From positions 1,488,001 to 1,552,000 of the forward strand of contig CP102405.1 in assembly GCA_024628785.1 (NCBI GenBank): a stretch of 64,000 nt of DNA, read 5' to 3'. Source of the DNA: Fusobacteria bacterium ZRK30. Its GTDB lineage: Bacteria; Fusobacteriota; Fusobacteriia; Fusobacteriales; Fusobacteriaceae. The notes under the pieces are model-generated. The model worked only from the letters and a program-made list of their open reading frames with translations. It had not been told where the DNA came from and ran no database searches. The position numbers were made by a program, and so were the translations under genes. Each line of letters opens with the position of its first letter. Positions within the stretch are counted from its first letter, which is position 1. This document shows, one piece after another, positions 8,482-19,050 of this stretch.

Positions 8482-10038
8482 ATGAAAGTTGATGAATTAA
8501 AAAAATATATTAAACGGGTTTGTAAAGGAAAAATTTCAATCACCTATGGTATGATAATAGCTTTGATACTGGGTGTAGTTATGTACGAGAGAGTAGATGC
8601 AGAAACCATAATCAATAATGATACTATTGATTATACAATGAGTGTAACTGGAGTCGGAAATACGGCAATAAATAATGGAACTATCACCTACGATGGGAAT
8701 ACTGGAATGTATGCAGGGCCAGGATCGAAATTAATAAATACAGAGAATGGAACCGTCATGAATAATGGATGGTATGGAATGTATGCATATAATAGTACGG
8801 CTACTAACTATGGTACTGTTATGAATAACGATCCTTATGGAATATACGCAATAAATCATAGTACGGCCAATAACTATGGTACTGTCATGAATACTGGTTC
8901 GGTTGGAATGAAAGCATATCTTTATAGTACGGTTACTAACTACGGAACTGTGAAGAATAATGGATATAATGGAATGCACGCAGATGATCATAGTACGGCT
9001 ACTAACTATGGTACTGTTATGAATACTGGTTCGGTTGGAATGAATGCATACCTTTATAGTACAGCTACTAACTATGGTACTATTAAAAATACTGGTTCGA
9101 TTGGAATGGTCGCACAATCCTATGGTACGGCTAACAACTACGGAACTGTAAAGAATAGTGGTCCTTATGGAATGAATGTAGTAGGATCTGGTAGTACCGC
9201 TAACAACTATGGTATTGTTAAGAATGATGGTTCTTATGGAATGCATCCAAGTTGGGGTGCTACAGCTATTAACTATGGAACTATTAAGAATGGTGGAAAT
9301 AATGGAATGTATGCATATAATAGTACGGCTACTAACTATGGTACTGTTATGAATACTGGTTATAATGGAATCATCGCAGTGTATAATAGCACGGCTACTA
9401 ACTATGGTACTGTCAAGAATGAAAAGAATATTGGAATACACGCAAACAATAATAGTACAGTTAATAACTATGGTACTGTCATGAATATAGGTTCTAGAGG
9501 AATGTCCGCAGCAAATCATAGTACGGCCAATAACTATGGTACTATCAAGAATACTGGGGATTTTGGAATGTTCGCAGCTTTTTATGGTACGGCTACTAAT
9601 GAAGGAAGAATAAAAAACTTTGGAAACTATAGAATGTCTGCTATAGGAGTAAGAGCAAAAGCAATAAATAGGGGGGAATTGAACACCGGATTTGACGGTT
9701 ATACTGTTATGAAAGGATCTTTAGGTGGCACTATCACCAATTATGGAACAATAGATGTAGACCATGACTACGGAATAGCTATGTATGTAGATGGTGGGTC
9801 TACTGCAATTAATCAAAAAACTGGTATTATTAATTTAAATAAGAACGTCGGTATTGGAATGTATGCTACTGGGGCAGGGTCTACAATAGTAAATCTTGGT
9901 AAAATTAATTTGTCAGGATCTGAGAGAACTGCAGGAGTTAATGAAATAGGAAGAGATGTTAAACATAATGTAGGTATGAAAATAAAAAATGGATCCACAA
10001 TGCTCAATAAAGGTCAAATCGTATTTGGTAAGAAATAA
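8482..10038 (+). CDS. Autotransporter-passenger-like repeat protein lacking a barrel domain
   Basis: 518 residues. The start has an extended signal region (basic residues 1-22, then ITYGMIIALILGVVMYERVDA), like the long signal peptides of fusobacterial type V autotransporters. Residues ~40-400 form about sixteen 22-24-residue repeats of the type STATNYGTVMNTGSVGM, the Asn/Gly/Thr pattern of right-handed beta-helix passengers. The protein ends at VFGKK with no beta-barrel. A terminator follows at 10108-10138. It may be a truncated autotransporter, or a secreted partner of another barrel. The DNA repeats create a long shadow frame on the opposite strand that is not a gene. Confidence 0.75.
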   Translation: MKVDELKKYIKRVCKGKISITYGMIIALILGVVMYERVDAETIINNDTIDYTMSVTGVGNTAINNGTITYDGNTGMYAGPGSKLINTENGTVMNNGWYGMYAYNSTATNYGTVMNNDPYGIYAINHSTANNYGTVMNTGSVGMKAYLYSTVTNYGTVKNNGYNGMHADDHSTATNYGTVMNTGSVGMNAYLYSTATNYGTIKNTGSIGMVAQSYGTANNYGTVKNSGPYGMNVVGSGSTANNYGIVKNDGSYGMHPSWGATAINYGTIKNGGNNGMYAYNSTATNYGTVMNTGYNGIIAVYNSTATNYGTVKNEKNIGIHANNNSTVNNYGTVMNIGSRGMSAANHSTANNYGTIKNTGDFGMFAAFYGTATNEGRIKNFGNYRMSAIGVRAKAINRGELNTGFDGYTVMKGSLGGTITNYGTIDVDHDYGIAMYVDGGSTAINQKTGIINLNKNVGIGMYATGAGSTIVNLGKINLSGSERTAGVNEIGRDVKHNVGMKIKNGSTMLNKGQIVFGKK

Positions 10039-12389: not shown

Positions 12390-13122
12390 CTATTTCGCAG
12401 AGACCCTGTAAGAGTCACCATTCATGTTTAAAATATGTCCTCTAAATGTTACGCGATCTATTAAAGCTGTTGTTAACATTGTATCAGGGAAGAATTCTTC
12501 CCACTCTGAAAATGCTAAATTAGTAGAAATTATAATACTTCCCCTCTCACTTCTTTCTGAAATCACTTGAAATAGGAGTTCTGATTGATGTTTGTTAAAG
12601 GAGAGGTAGGAAAGCTCATCTATTATGAGTAGATCTAATCTTGCTAATTGCCTTAAGAATCTCCCTAAATTACTATTTTCTTGCGCTTCAACTAATTTAT
12701 TTGATAAGTTAGCAGCTGTAGTAAAGTACACCTTATGTCCACAGTTGCAAGCTTTAAGTCCTAGAGCTATAGAAAGATGTGTCTTTCCAGTTCCTGGGTT
12801 CCCTATCATTATTATATTTTTTTTTTTTTTTGATAAACTCACAGCTGGAGAGTTCGCCTACTACTGAAGGTTTTAAATAGCTAAGACGTTTAACTTCAAA
12901 CTCTTCTAGCGTTTTTTCAAAGGGAAATTTAGCTCCGCGCTTTAACCTGAAAAGTTTATTGTCTTGTCTAGTTAATACTTCCTTTTCTAATAGTGTAAGC
13001 AGAAATTCTTCATATCCTTGTTTTGAATTTATTGCTTGGCGCTGAACCTCATGATAGTCTTTGAAGCTAGATAGTTTTAAAGCTTTGGAAAAAAGTTTAA
13101 TTTTTTCACTAATTACACTCAT
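12390..13122 (-). pseudogene. istB: IstB, IS21 helper ATPase, frameshifted at an A15 tract
   Basis: The N-terminal part (13122 to about 12817) reads MSVISEKIKLFSKALKLSS to ...ELSSCEFIKKKK. The C-terminal part continues one frame over as NIIMIGNPGTGKTH (Walker A), LDLLIIDELSYL (Walker B) and IISTNLAFSEW to 12390. The switch is exactly at a run of fifteen A on the coding strand (12817-12831). Fourteen A would give one continuous ~244-residue IstB, a normal length. IstB is the AAA+ target-capture partner of the IstA transposase. The start overlaps the istA stop (TAATG). It is either inactive, expressed by slippage, or a sequencing artefact. Confidence 0.85.
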
Positions 13123-14548
13123 TAGATCACCTCTTGGGAAATTAAGTTATCATATTTACCTAAATTATTTCTTTGAACTTCTATTTGGTCGTTGATTTTA
13201 GGAAGACCGACTTCTTCTCTTAGATATTCTAAAAAGAGTTTTGAATCTCCTTTAGAGTGATACATTTCAAAAATTGCTTTAGGAATATTTTGTATAACTG
13301 GATCAGCATTAAATACAGCTCGCGGTTTTCTTTCTAAAGCTTTAAGATAGTGAATTAATTGATAACTATGCTTATTTTTTTTAAATATCCTCTGGTGAAT
13401 TGCAACAACTTTACCTTTATGAAGAAATTGTATTTCTGAATGACCAGTTTTTAAAATCACCTCAGTTCCTACTAATTCACAGGGTAATGAATATTTATTA
13501 GTTTCAAAAGTTACAGTTGAAAACTTAGTGACTCTTTTATAGTCTCTTTTAGAAATATCTAGTGAATGGCTAGGAAGCTCTAAAAGGTTATTAGCTTCAA
13601 TCTGGAATTTTTGTTTAACACTTAAGCTTTCACCGCCAACTTTATGATTTTCTAAGTAGTTATCACAAGCCTTTTTTATTTTGATATTTAACTCATTCAA
13701 ACTTTTAACTCTAGGGATAGGAACCATAGTATTTCTTCTGATAAGTCCTACTAAATTTTCAACCAAACCTTTTTCATTTCCACTTCTAACATTGCAAAAT
13801 TTAGGTTTAAAAGCATAATGAGCAACGAGAGTTTCATACCCTTTAGTTATTTTAGTTACATGTTTTCCATAGCCTTCTGATACAGCAACTCTGGCATTAT
13901 CAAAGAGAACTTCTCTAGGAACACCACCAAAATATTCAAAAGCAGAGATGATCCCATCTAAAAAGCATTCTTCTCTTTCTGCGAAGTAGGCCTTAGTAAA
14001 GATATGAGCGCTATATGCTAACCGAGCACAAAAATATTTTATTTCCTGCTTTTCATCATTGAGAAAGATATGCGCTGAACCAAAATCAATTTGCATAGCT
14101 TCCGCAGGATTAAAGGTAAGTGGTAGAAAAACCTCTTTTGTTTTACCTTTTAATTCTCTAAATGCAACCTTAACAGAAGAATATGAACCAAGAAACCCAG
14201 CCTCTTCTTTGAGTCTAACCCAAACCCTATTAGCAGTGTGCCTCTGTTTTGAATGAGTATGCTCGTTATCTTCAAGAATACAAGCTTGAATAAAGTCTAA
14301 GACTTCTCTAGTCATAACTTGTTTTCTTCTAGAAGAAAACTTTTTTCTCCAGGAATTGTATCTCCATTAATATACTTTCTAACAGTGTTTCTAGAAATAT
14401 GAAGATCTCTAGAAATTTTTCTAATAGAAACCCCTTCAACTAGATGAAGTCGTCTAATTTTTTTATATGTATCCATATGAATTGCCACCTCAAACCTCCT
14501 GTACATCTCTTTAAAAAGATTGTACAGAGTAATATTAGGGTGGGTCAA
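13122..14548 (-). pseudogene. istA: IstA transposase, frameshifted near the N-terminus
   Basis: The first 66 or so codons (from 14548) encode a helix-turn-helix (MDTYKKIRRLHLVEGVSIRK then ISRNTVRKYI). That frame then runs to a stop at 14312. The remaining 397 codons (14315-13122) carry the DDE core: MQIDFGSAHIFL, VPREVLFDNAR, and a downstream acidic NVRSGNEKGLVENLVG segment. Reading one base back at the A6 run (coding strand, 14342-14347) yields a continuous PGEKKFSSRRKQVMTREVLDF, matching the expected IS21 transposase. A one-base loss in an A7 is the simplest cause. The zero-frame codons do not form a canonical slippery heptamer. Confidence 0.85.
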
Positions 14549-14750: not shown

Positions 14751-16358
14751 TTAACCTCTTTCTTTCTCTCTAAATAATCTATCTCTAATATCAAACATTT
14801 CAAAATTAATCATTCTTAATAATTCTTTGTCATGAGTTACTAAGACAACGGCACCGTGATATTCATTTAACATATTTGCAATTGTAGACCTAGAGTAACT
14901 ATCCATATAAGTAGAAGGTTCATCTATTACAAGTAAATGAGTTTCAGCTAAGATGTTAGTAAATATTTCTAATCTCTTTTTCTCTCCACCACTTAACATA
15001 TATAATTTTTTACTTCTAAATTCTTCTTCGTAATTGAAAAGAGAGTCAATAGCTCCTTCAATAAAGTCTTGGTTTAGACCAGTTTTATCCTGAATATATT
15101 CTGTAATCTTCATATTTTCATCTTCTAAGATAGTTTCTTGCTCTATATAAGAGAATTTTGCCTTAGGGTTTATATCAATAGTTCCTGTAGTAGGGACTTC
15201 TTCTCCTAAAATCATCTTTAATAAAGTTGATTTTCCAGCTCCATTTTCTCCTACGATACATATTTTACTGTTCTTTAATATATCAAAGTTAACATCTTTA
15301 TATAATGTTTTTTCAGGGAACTCCTTAGAAACATTATTAACTGAAGCTATTATATCTCCAATATCTTTATTAATTGTAAGATATTCTTCAGGGCTAGAAT
15401 TATAAGTATATTCAGATTCTTTAGAATGTACATTTTTCCCTTTTTCTAATCTTTCTAATTCTCTTTCCATCCTTCTTAAGATTACAGCATGAGAACGATT
15501 ATTTCCGACTCCTTGTACTAATATTTCTTTTTTCTTAATTCTTTCACGGGTTTTTTCTATTTCAAATTCTTTTTCTCTATTTTCTTTTTTTTCTTCCTTT
15601 AGTTGTATCTTTTTGTCCTTTTGGTAAGTTCTATAATCCCCTTCATATGTAGTTACTTTGAAATTATCTACATCAAAGAATTTATTAGAAAATAACCTAA
15701 TAAAATCAATACTATGAGAAACTACTAAAAATGCTTTAGAACTTTTAGAAATAAAGTTAGCTAACCAAGCAGTTTTCTTTTTATCAAAATATGATAATGG
15801 TTCATCTAAGATTACAAGGTTAGATTCTTTGAATAAAGCTATTGCAAGTCTTACATATTGCTTTTCTCCACCACTTAAATCTTTAAATTCTCTATCTAAC
15901 TTACTCCCTAATTCAAATACATCTATAAATTCAGATTGTAAATGAATATAGTCATATGCTCCTAAACTTTCAAAAAGATCTGAAGCTTTTTGAAATTCTT
16001 CCATTACTTTTTCATCATTGTCTGCTTCACCAGTAAACTGAGTCGAAACTTCTTCTAAGTGAACTTGAGCTTTTATTATGTGCTCAAATGGTGAGTCTAA
16101 TAACTCTTTTACTGATTTATCTAAACTTGTTTCTCCAAATTGATCAAAGTAAGCAATTTGTGCTTCCTCTTCAATTACTATATCTCCATAAGTTGGATAT
16201 TCATCTTCATTTATTAATTTTAATAAAGTTGATTTTCCACTTCCATTATTACCAACAATAGCAATCTTCTCTCCCTTGTTGATCTCTAAATTAACATTTT
16301 CATATAACTTTTGAGTTAAATGTGATTTTGCTACATCTTTAAATTCAATAATATTCAT
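14751..16358 (-). CDS. ABC-F family ATPase with atypical Walker B motifs
   Basis: 535 residues, two ABC domains, no membrane segments. Walker A: GNNGSGKST (~37-45) and GENGAGKST in the second half. Signatures: LSGGEKQYV and LSGGEKKRL. A charged linker rich in Lys/Glu (about 255-320) joins the domains. ABC-F proteins bind the ribosomal E site and act in translation or as ribosome-protection factors against antibiotics. The family hallmark after Walker B (DEPTNHLD) is altered to DEPLSYFD and DEPSTYMD. This suggests a divergent subfamily, perhaps drug-related (Lsa/Vga-like); specificity cannot be read. It is monocistronic and flanked by repeats. Confidence 0.82.
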   Translation of the reverse strand: MNIIEFKDVAKSHLTQKLYENVNLEINKGEKIAIVGNNGSGKSTLLKLINEDEYPTYGDIVIEEEAQIAYFDQFGETSLDKSVKELLDSPFEHIIKAQVHLEEVSTQFTGEADNDEKVMEEFQKASDLFESLGAYDYIHLQSEFIDVFELGSKLDREFKDLSGGEKQYVRLAIALFKESNLVILDEPLSYFDKKKTAWLANFISKSSKAFLVVSHSIDFIRLFSNKFFDVDNFKVTTYEGDYRTYQKDKKIQLKEEKKENREKEFEIEKTRERIKKKEILVQGVGNNRSHAVILRRMERELERLEKGKNVHSKESEYTYNSSPEEYLTINKDIGDIIASVNNVSKEFPEKTLYKDVNFDILKNSKICIVGENGAGKSTLLKMILGEEVPTTGTIDINPKAKFSYIEQETILEDENMKITEYIQDKTGLNQDFIEGAIDSLFNYEEEFRSKKLYMLSGGEKKRLEIFTNILAETHLLVIDEPSTYMDSYSRSTIANMLNEYHGAVVLVTHDKELLRMINFEMFDIRDRLFREKERG

Positions 16359-17100: not shown

Positions 17101-17130
17101 TTTACATTTAAATAAAATTTATGTTATTAT
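17101..17130 (+). promoter_or_regulatory. Promoter of the Met-leader / MetRS unit
   Basis: -35 TTTACA (17101-17106), 18-base spacer, extended -10 TGTTATTAT (17122-17130). It predicts a start about 17137, just ahead of the leader ribosome site. Confidence 0.55.
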
Positions 17131-17159
17131 CTAAAAAAATTCAAATGAGGGAGATTGTT

Positions 17160-17219
17160 ATGAAAAATATAGAATTCAGACAATTAAATATGATGATGAT
17201 GCTTTGGAAGGGTTTGTAA
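17160..17219 (+). CDS. Met-rich leader peptide (19 codons, four consecutive Met codons)
   Basis: ATG 17160 lies 6 bases after GAGGGAG (17147-17153), a strong ribosome site. The reading is MKNIEFRQLNMMMMLWKGL then TAA. Codons 11-14 (17190-17201) are ATG ATG ATG ATG, one codon before a Trp. A short ORF with a run of one amino acid's codons, followed by hairpins and a terminator and then the cognate aminoacyl-tRNA synthetase gene, is the classical attenuator leader layout. Shortage of charged elongator Met-tRNA would stall ribosomes here. Expression is inferred. Confidence 0.72.
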   Translation: MKNIEFRQLNMMMMLWKGL

Positions 17220-17330
17220 CTTAAATTATTTAATTTAAGGGCAGACTCATTTTGTATTAATTTACTGAGTCTGCCAAACATCTTTCAAGTAATTACGAAA
17301 GCCTGTGGTAGACGCCACAGGCTTTTTTTA
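17220..17330 (+). promoter_or_regulatory. Candidate transcription attenuator of the second MetRS gene
   Basis: Three tandem hairpins follow the leader stop. Hairpin 0 pairs CTTAAATT/AATTTAAG (17220-17239). Hairpin 1 pairs GGCAGACTCA/TGAGTCTGCC (17240-17249 with 17266-17275). The third is the terminator (17298-17325). An exclusive alternative exists: GTCTGCC (17269-17275) pairs with GGTAGAC (17307-17313), with one G-U, which would break both hairpin 1 and the terminator stem. This is the antiterminator geometry. How a ribosome stalled at the Met codons would release 17269-17275 is not obvious, since hairpin 1 begins 20 bases past the stop; hairpin 0 may be part of the switch. Confidence 0.6.
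17298..17330 (+). terminator. Intrinsic terminator between Met leader and MetRS gene
   Basis: An 11-bp stem AAAGCCTGTGG / CCACAGGCTTT is followed by a T run, 43 bases before the MetRS start. It is GC-rich for this genome, so it should be efficient. Confidence 0.85.
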
Positions 17331-17372
17331 TTTTATAAAAATATTATATTGAATCAATAGGGAGTTGAGATT

Positions 17373-19050
17373 ATGACAAAAATTATTACTGCTGCTTTAC
17401 CGTATATTAATAACGTTCCACACTTAGGGCATATTGCTGGCTCACATTTACCAGCAGACATTTATAACCGATTTTGTAAAATTAAAGGAGAAGAGACTTT
17501 GTTTATTGGAGGATCAGATGTTCATGGGACACCTTCTTTAATACTTTCTAGGGAAATTGGTATTTCTCCAGAAGTTCTAACAGATAACCTACATAAAGTT
17601 CATAAAAAATTATATGATTATTTTAATATCTCATATGATAACTATTCAAAAACATCATCAAGTATACATAAAAAAAATGCACAAAACTTTTTTACAAAGC
17701 TTGATGATAATGGTTACATTCAAGAAAAAACTTCTATTATGAAGTATTGTGAACATGACAAACTTTTCCTACCAGATCGTCTTATTGAAGGAACTTGTCC
17801 TAATTGTGGTTATGAAAATTCGAATGGTGATCAATGTGAAAAATGTGGTTCATTGACTGAATCTTCTTTACTTTTAGATTCAAAATGTAAACTTTGTGGA
17901 AATAAACCTATAGAAAAAGAAGATACTCATTTATATTTTTCATTAGATAAAGTTTCAAATGAAATATCTAATTGGATAAAAACAAAAGTAGATGTTTTTA
18001 ATAATATCACATATAGTGAAGCTCAAAATTGGTTAAATAAAGATCTACACCCTAGAAGTATCACACGAAATATGACATGGGGAATTCCTGTTCCTAAAAA
18101 AATATATGAAGACAAAGTATTTTATGTGTGGTTTGAAGCCCCTATTGCGTATATAAGTTTCATTAAAGAAATTAATCATGAAAATCTTTGGGAAAATAAA
18201 AATACTAAAATTTATCATTTTTTAGGAAAAGATAATATTCCATTCCATACTATTTTTTGGCCAGGGCTTTTAATGGGAAATGGGAAATATAATACTCCTA
18301 ATAATGTAATTGGATATAATTATTTAACATATGAAAATGAAAAATTCTCTAAAAGTAAAGGAATAGGTATATTTTGTATAAATTTTTTAAATTGTGATAT
18401 TAATATAGATTCACTTAGAGCATATTTAACTCATATATTGCCAGAAAAAAAAAGACTCTAATTTTAGTTTATTAGATTATAAAAATTTTCATAATAGCGA
18501 ATTAATAGGTAAAATTTTTAATTTTTTTAATAGGAGTTTGAATATGGTTTGGAAAAATTTCGATGGACAGATTAAAATTGATCTTTCTACTGAGTTGGAA
18601 ATTATTTCAAAAATCGATGAAAAATGTAGTATAATAATGAAAAACTACGAAACTTTCTCTTTTAGATCGGCTTTATCAAAAGTAATAGAATTAGCATCTA
18701 TTGGAAATATTTATTTCGATAATGAAAAACCTTGGGAATTAGCTAAAAATAATGATTTAGAAAAATTAAAAGAAATTTTAGGGGTTTCTATGTATATTTG
18801 TGAAAAATTAATTATTTTTTTAAATCCAATTTTACCAACTCTAAGTAAAGAACTATGGGAAAAGCAATTACAAAAAAAAGAAAAAATTCACTATAATAAA
18901 GAAACTTCAACTAGTCTCGATCTATTAATAAAGAAACCTTATCCAATATTAAGTAGAATTGATGATGATCAACTTCAAAATTATGTAGAAGTTTTGACAA
19001 AAGAATTTTCTTTAGAAAACTTAATTAATGAAGAAAGAAATATTAACTAG
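17373..19050 (+). pseudogene. Second methionyl-tRNA synthetase, frameshifted at an A9 tract
   Basis: Class I MetRS. HLGH lies at residues 17-20, GSDVHGTPS replaces the usual G-T-D-E-H-G, two zinc knuckles (CPNCGYENSNGDQCEKC and CKLCG) are at ~146-185, and KFSKS is at ~324-328. The zero frame stops at 18461. The next frame continues without a gap (DSNFSLLDYKNFHNSELIGK, then IFNFFNRSLNMVW) through the anticodon-binding helical domain to 19050. The switch is at nine A (18445-18453); eight would give a ~559-residue enzyme without the C-terminal dimerisation domain. Motifs suggest the MetRS2/archaeal-like type that can resist MetRS inhibitors (inference). The housekeeping MetRS is not in this window. 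Confidence 0.85.

Follow-up and report, generated by a model that had tools for sequence, protein, structure and literature searches.

What does the 19-codon open reading frame with four consecutive Met codons do in front of a second methionyl-tRNA synthetase (MetRS) gene of Fusobacteria bacterium ZRK30? The gene lies in a 64,000-nucleotide stretch of contig CP102405.1; this whole stretch is referred to as the window, and positions are counted from its first letter. The original prediction was that a promoter, a ribosome site, the four-Met leader, two hairpins and a terminator precede the gene and that leader, terminator and antiterminator form an attenuator. All of these parts are present (Table 1), and the attenuator is backed by paralogues and relatives. 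We consider it highly likely that the element works as a ribosome-mediated transcription attenuator sensing the Met-tRNA supply, as one member of a methionine regulon.

Anatomy of the leader

The promoter-like site has an 18-nt spacer and a TG ahead of the -10 hexamer. Such sites are not rare here (5 found, 3.1 expected by chance), and a near-identical stretch also lies 5' of the leader of the corresponding MetRS gene in genome G055 (L044). The Shine-Dalgarno-like stretch recurs at the equivalent place in relatives, and the Met run is varied yet retained in them (IMMM, MLMMM, ILMLMM, MMNMM, MMNMMM, MMMYM). The terminator was found once, with 0.0 expected in shuffled sequence, and pairs of its stem are changed on both sides among relatives. 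The predicted alternative pairing of 17269-17275 with 17307-17313 exists as written: it has 7 bp, six Watson-Crick and one G-U, grows to 8 through 17276:17306, and is incompatible with both hairpin 2 (P1) and the terminator. At curated thresholds, an Rfam scan of the element returned no family, including T-box (RF00230) and SAM-I (RF00162), and no DNA match to the element was obtained in plasmid and phage collections.

Table 1. Features of the leader region and the downstream gene in the window.
Feature	Position	Strand	Basis
Promoter-like site, -35 TTTACA and -10 TATTAT	17101-17106 and 17125-17130	+	Consensus scan, 10/12 matches
Shine-Dalgarno-like GAGGGAG	17147-17153	+	Read directly; 6 nt ahead of ATG 17160
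Leader ORF MKNIEFRQLNMMMMLWKGL, 19 codons	17160-17219	+	Read directly; stop codon 17217-17219
Four Met codons (ATG x4), regulatory	17190-17201	+	Read directly
Segment 1 GGGUUUGU, partner of segment 2	17210-17217	+	RNAalifold consensus, swap control, masked folding
Hairpin 1 CUUAAAUU/AAUUUAAG, arms 17220-17227/17232-17239	17220-17239	+	Nested in loop of 1:2
Segment 2 GCAGACUC, 5' arm of hairpin 2	17241-17248	+	RNAalifold, swap control, masked folding
Hairpin 2 (P1)	17240-17249/17266-17275	+	5' arm contains segment 2
Segment 3 GUCUGCC(A), 3' arm of P1, partner of segment 4	17269-17276	+	Antiterminator permutation test
Segment 4 (U)GGUAGAC, loop side of terminator 5' arm	17306-17313	+	Antiterminator permutation test
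Intrinsic terminator, 13-bp stem 17297-17326 and U run	17297-17330	+	Shuffle test
Second methionyl-tRNA synthetase (MetRS2), type 2, archaeal/eukaryotic-like	17373-19050	+	PF09334 with in-frame stops, TIGR00398

Mutually exclusive pairings and the position of the ribosome

Given 19 Met elements and no prompting, RNAalifold picked the pairing of segment 1 with segment 2, with hairpin 1 nested inside; one pair of hairpin 1 is changed on both sides, being UA in 12 elements and AU in 7. In 33 fusobacterial elements of all codon specificities, 240 of 263 cells of the 1:2 pairing were paired (91.3%). Whole-segment swaps among the sequences gave a mean of 86.8%, with none of 2000 trials reaching 91.3%, and slid versions gave 27-48%; swapped segments still pair at 86.8% because 1:2 is strongly conserved. 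The two segments of L180 differ yet are fully complementary (GGAUUUGC/GCAAAUCC), and most leaders of genus g3 have a G-G mismatch within 1:2. For the antiterminator 3:4, whose segments were delimited by hand, the mean energy was -12.5 kcal/mol with the own partner versus -6.7 with permuted ones (0/20000). The swap controls support both pairings, and mutually exclusive pairings that include the terminator and the antiterminator are kept in relatives.

A ribosome shields RNA to about 12 nt beyond the first base of its A-site codon, as is established from toeprints, and this reach was assumed here from toeprints of the E. coli type. Stalls at Met codons 1 to 4 would then free the RNA from 17203, 17206, 17209 and 17212, respectively, and only the footprint at the fourth overlaps segment 1, by 2 nt. 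With a ribosome at the stop codon, segment 1 is covered and RNA is free only from 17230. Twelve leaders were folded up to segment 4 under such ribosome masks, with energies that ignore transcription kinetics. When the mask placed the ribosome on the stop codon, 1:2 was zero in all 12 and, in most, P1 was dominant with little 3:4; under a stall, 1:2 and 3:4 both formed in most of the 12. Ribosome position decides the pairing in masked folding, partially so in four leaders. That of the window switched strongly at Met codon 3 and partially at codon 2, with P1 favoured at codons 1 and 4; in L032 and L117 (both g3) 3:4 persisted also when the ribosome stood on the stop codon; and in L180 the switch was weak at the Pro codons. 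Folding with no ribosome gave a predicted state that varied between leaders.

From these data we infer the following switch. When Met-tRNA is plentiful, the leading ribosome would advance to the stop codon and cover segment 1; segment 2 would pair with segment 3 as P1, segment 4 would be left for the terminator, and transcription would end near 17330. When Met-tRNA is short, the ribosome would be held at the Met codons and the free segment 1 would pair with segment 2. This would occupy the 5' arm of hairpin 2, setting segment 3 free, so that the 3:4 antiterminator would form in place of the terminator and RNA polymerase would read into the MetRS gene. The original prediction had left the switch not fully explained, with a stalled ribosome ending about 20 bases before hairpin 1; the pairing 1:2, which it had overlooked, removes that difficulty, since a free segment 1 would pair with segment 2 when the ribosome is held at the Met codons. 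Other amino acids would be served by the same platform through exchange of the codon run.

Transcription attenuators that work through a leader peptide are well known from the trp, his and leu operons of E. coli and from trp, trpS2 and leuS of Actinobacteria. The window element has in common with them a short translated ORF, a run of cognate codons, alternative pairings and an intrinsic terminator. Unlike them, it is Met-specific and follows the chain 1:2, 2:3, 3:4, terminator, in which a stalled ribosome is predicted to free segment 1 rather than mask it; the classical trp-type order, with segment 1 masked and 2:3 as antiterminator, does not apply, and 3:4 is the predicted antiterminator instead. 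Attenuators on aminoacyl-tRNA synthetase genes are known in Streptomyces (PMC1262725).

One platform, several codon runs

Within the same 3.6-Mb genome, a paralogue of 90% identity (leader MRNFEFRQLNIMMMLWKGL) precedes the metN-metI-lipoprotein (metNIQ) operon, and another of 78% identity (leader MVNSRIGQLNMLMMMLW) precedes hom-metY-metF-metA, with metH further on. Searches used a model built from three copies and later from 19 sequences; genes were named by recognition of their translated sequences, MetRS alone being checked with profiles. Met-run leaders were found in g1, the genus of the window, and in genera g3 and g25 ahead of metN, metY-metF-metA, aspartate kinase and peptide-binding protein genes. 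Those of g3 that resemble MFNRAIKTTMMNMMPLGVGTKN precede metY-metF-metA-hom-metH, aspartate kinase or a peptide-binding lipoprotein, and one ending in LISKTTMMNMMMPMGVGTKN precedes the metN operon. In the two fusobacterial genera other than that of the window, the leaders ahead of met operons are divergent (with TTMMNMMPLG or NMMMYM). Named contigs with the same elements belong to Fusobacteriaceae/Fusobacteriales. A short ORF with a ribosome site and a cognate codon run thus precedes matching genes, and both leader ORF and pairing are conserved in relatives, where a lack of conservation had been named as grounds for rejecting the original prediction. R1 matches scoring some 18 bits or lower had no Met leader, and they were left out. 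A third copy of the Met leader in the genome of the window, MINSRIGQLNMLMMQN, is decayed; it lies on the minus strand of L004 at about 1490-1580 near a PEP-synthase-like gene and has neither P1 nor terminator. In the literature searched, we found no Fusobacterium transcriptome paper bearing on the element.

The same platform carries other codon runs, which track the pathway of the downstream genes: His runs lie ahead of hisZ-hisG and amino-acid ABC transporters, Tyr runs ahead of tyrS, FWYFYYF ahead of DAHP synthase, MCMC ahead of sulfite reductase, and Trp codons ahead of trpX/trpB. Three copies of one platform were read in G090, a genome of another family, with NMMMYM ahead of metY-metF-metA, HHH ahead of the his operon and MCMC ahead of a sulfite-reductase gene. 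The MCMC leader (L121 4370-4552, minus strand; G090:C1:538369-538551) stands before a sulfite-reductase-like gene, and this attenuator may sense two sulfur amino acids. In the genome of the window itself, MFNKSLIFITVHHHHHR with HHHHH precedes an amino-acid ABC transporter (L007, G000:C2:2182714-2182828), and MKFNDNQTYYYYY with YYYYY, on the same kind of platform, precedes a tyrosyl-tRNA synthetase (L010, G000:C2:775510-775602). Ahead of leuA (L003 2077-2216, plus strand) stand a Leu-rich leader ORF, with ten consecutive Leu codons, and a terminator; this Leu attenuator is divergent from the hom Met leader. A wide pattern scan of genome contigs returned chiefly chance matches in unrelated phyla, together with three useful fusobacterial loci.

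SAM-I riboswitches (RF00162) occur in 83 of 98 genomes, many with 2-5 copies. At most one was found in g1 genomes, one in G090 and one or two in g3, and the sole copy in the genome of the window is ahead of an ECF-type transporter. Those of G019, G042 and G041 are ahead of metN, metK, metY or metF; in sister genera, SAM-I thus stands on met operons of the same kinds as those with the attenuator. It differs in sensing SAM and in having no leader ORF, and it was not found at the Met-attenuator loci. With SAM-I and the attenuator ahead of the same kinds of operon, different genera therefore use different sensors. T-boxes above the cut-off were found in 2 of the 98 genomes of the phylum. The only T-box-like match in the genome of the window (G000:C1:493452-493626) is sub-threshold at 74 bits and lies ahead of an asparaginyl-tRNA synthetase-like gene.

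The best, weak Rfam match of the window element was RF04312 (37.1 bits, E 0.0009), which by score does not make it a member (gathering score 59). This 'trpB motif', a name that in the literature searched appears in the original paper alone, was described in 2024 as a strong riboswitch candidate of Firmicutes and Fusobacteria with an unknown ligand; it precedes amino-acid genes and has a P1, a terminator and an antiterminator in the right shoulder of P1 (PMC11109978). That description names neither segment 1 nor a leader ORF and did not rule out a classic attenuator (PMC11109978). The window element and its relatives have the same architecture 5' of amino-acid genes: a P1 whose right shoulder holds the antiterminator, and then the terminator.

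Matches to RF04312 at E <= 1e-4 were found in 26 of 98 Fusobacteriota genomes, none above the cut-off. A leader with HHH ends just 5' of 21 of the 26 fusobacterial sites with full flanks, versus 2 of 5892 background positions. The remaining sites, on RF04312-like platforms too, have FWYFYYF ahead of a DAHP-synthase-like gene (L171), two Pro codons ahead of a proline-type symporter (two sites, L180 and L188), Trp ahead of a trpX-type protein or HYH ahead of an amino-acid transporter. One Firmicutes order gave matches in 58 of 148 genomes, 35 of them above the cut-off. Each of the 30 Firmicutes sites that were read has a leader containing one or more Trp codons (background 3.6%), and 27 of the 30 have two (background 1.3%), mostly ahead of trpX-type transporters or trpB. 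Segment 1 is present wherever tested, as in L199 (AGUUGUAU/AUACAACU). The ten genomes behind other loci gave no match to RF04312. Because cognate-codon leaders stand at its sites and segment 1 is there where tested, RF04312 is very probably a leader-peptide attenuator. For Firmicutes, attenuators of his genes have been described whose leader contains three to five His codons; they share the cognate-codon leader, terminator and antiterminator but are His only, and no link to RF04312 was found in the two papers (PMC9413887; PMC2965389).

The second MetRS and alternative explanations

Among solved structures, MetRS2 most resembles archaeal and cytosolic MetRS; its best solved relative is 1rqg. 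In addition to MetRS2, the genome has a type-1 housekeeping MetRS (PRK12267 type), which lacks a leader. MetRS2 is present in 2 of 8 genomes in the genus, not all of which are complete. Compared with the intact 558-aa copy of the congener G055, the A9 run at 18445-18453 of the window gene is longer by one A, which shifts the frame and leaves a first ORF of 17373-18461 and a remainder of 18538-19050. The extra A may be a sequencing error, slippage or a real loss. The two copies share 94.1% DNA identity; 57 of their codon differences are synonymous and 37 non-synonymous, which suggests that selection acted on MetRS2 during much of their divergence. Upstream on the other strand lies an ABC-F gene (14751-16358), whose best NCBIfam match, ribosomal protection-like ABC-F, scores 319.6 bits where the cut-off is 380. 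Farther off in the window are an IS21-type transposase pair (12390-14315; istA-like 13122-14315, istB-like split between two frames 12390-13122) and a long repetitive ORF with TNYGTVMNNG-type repeats, adhesin- or autotransporter passenger-like (8482-10038).

Since inhibitors of MetRS1 act poorly on MetRS2 (PMC8165550), a protective role of MetRS2 against them is plausible. An inducible resistance circuit, in which the spare enzyme answers a MetRS inhibitor, would be a use of the attenuator and not an alternative to it, and the leader would sense the loss of charged tRNA-Met that such an inhibitor brings. We nevertheless think this use unlikely: the same attenuator stands on genes of Met uptake and synthesis, the enzyme is infrequent in the genus, and this copy is frameshifted. 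Of the circuit originally proposed, the attenuator part stands, whereas its being special to MetRS is not supported, since Met uptake and synthesis genes carry it too.

Other readings would dispense with attenuation by a ribosome altogether. The element might be a riboswitch for methionine, SAM or a similar metabolite, the leader ORF being incidental, as could be suggested by RF04312, a related platform published as a strong riboswitch candidate (PMC11109978), and by the control of met genes by SAM-I in sister genera. This we regard as very improbable, given that runs of His, Tyr, aromatic, Met/Cys or Trp codons stand on the same platform ahead of matching genes, that no aptamer-like conserved loop is seen, and that Rfam finds no SAM riboswitch at the window. 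A T-box reading uncharged tRNA directly would suit an aminoacyl-tRNA synthetase gene, which T-boxes often control, but Rfam finds none at the window, T-boxes are few in the phylum and they are not characterised by a translated leader carrying a Met run; we give this reading hardly any credence. Nor does a plain terminator of upstream transcription beside a chance short ORF seem credible: the region is AT-rich and its promoter-like sites are not rare, but leader, pairings and gene association are kept across three genera despite sequence change.

The Met-tRNA attenuator therefore remains our reading of the window element. In the literature searched, outside which many subscription journals lie, no earlier Met-specific leader-peptide attenuator was found, so that this would be the first found there, and it comes with a working model. 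For the trpB motif, with its more than 900 sites, the answer offered is that it senses charged tRNA read by a ribosome and not a small ligand. On balance we favour a wider view, in which Fusobacteriota and, via RF04312, Firmicutes would share one attenuator platform with Met, His, Tyr, Phe/Tyr/Trp, Met/Cys, Pro and Trp runs, spread in the manner of T-boxes by duplication and codon exchange; the orphan trpB motif would be the same platform, and in three fusobacterial genera the Met version would occupy the place that SAM-I has in sister genera. Met operons would then be governed by SAM-I riboswitches in some genera and by tRNA-sensing attenuators in others, with the specificity of the platform set by one codon run.
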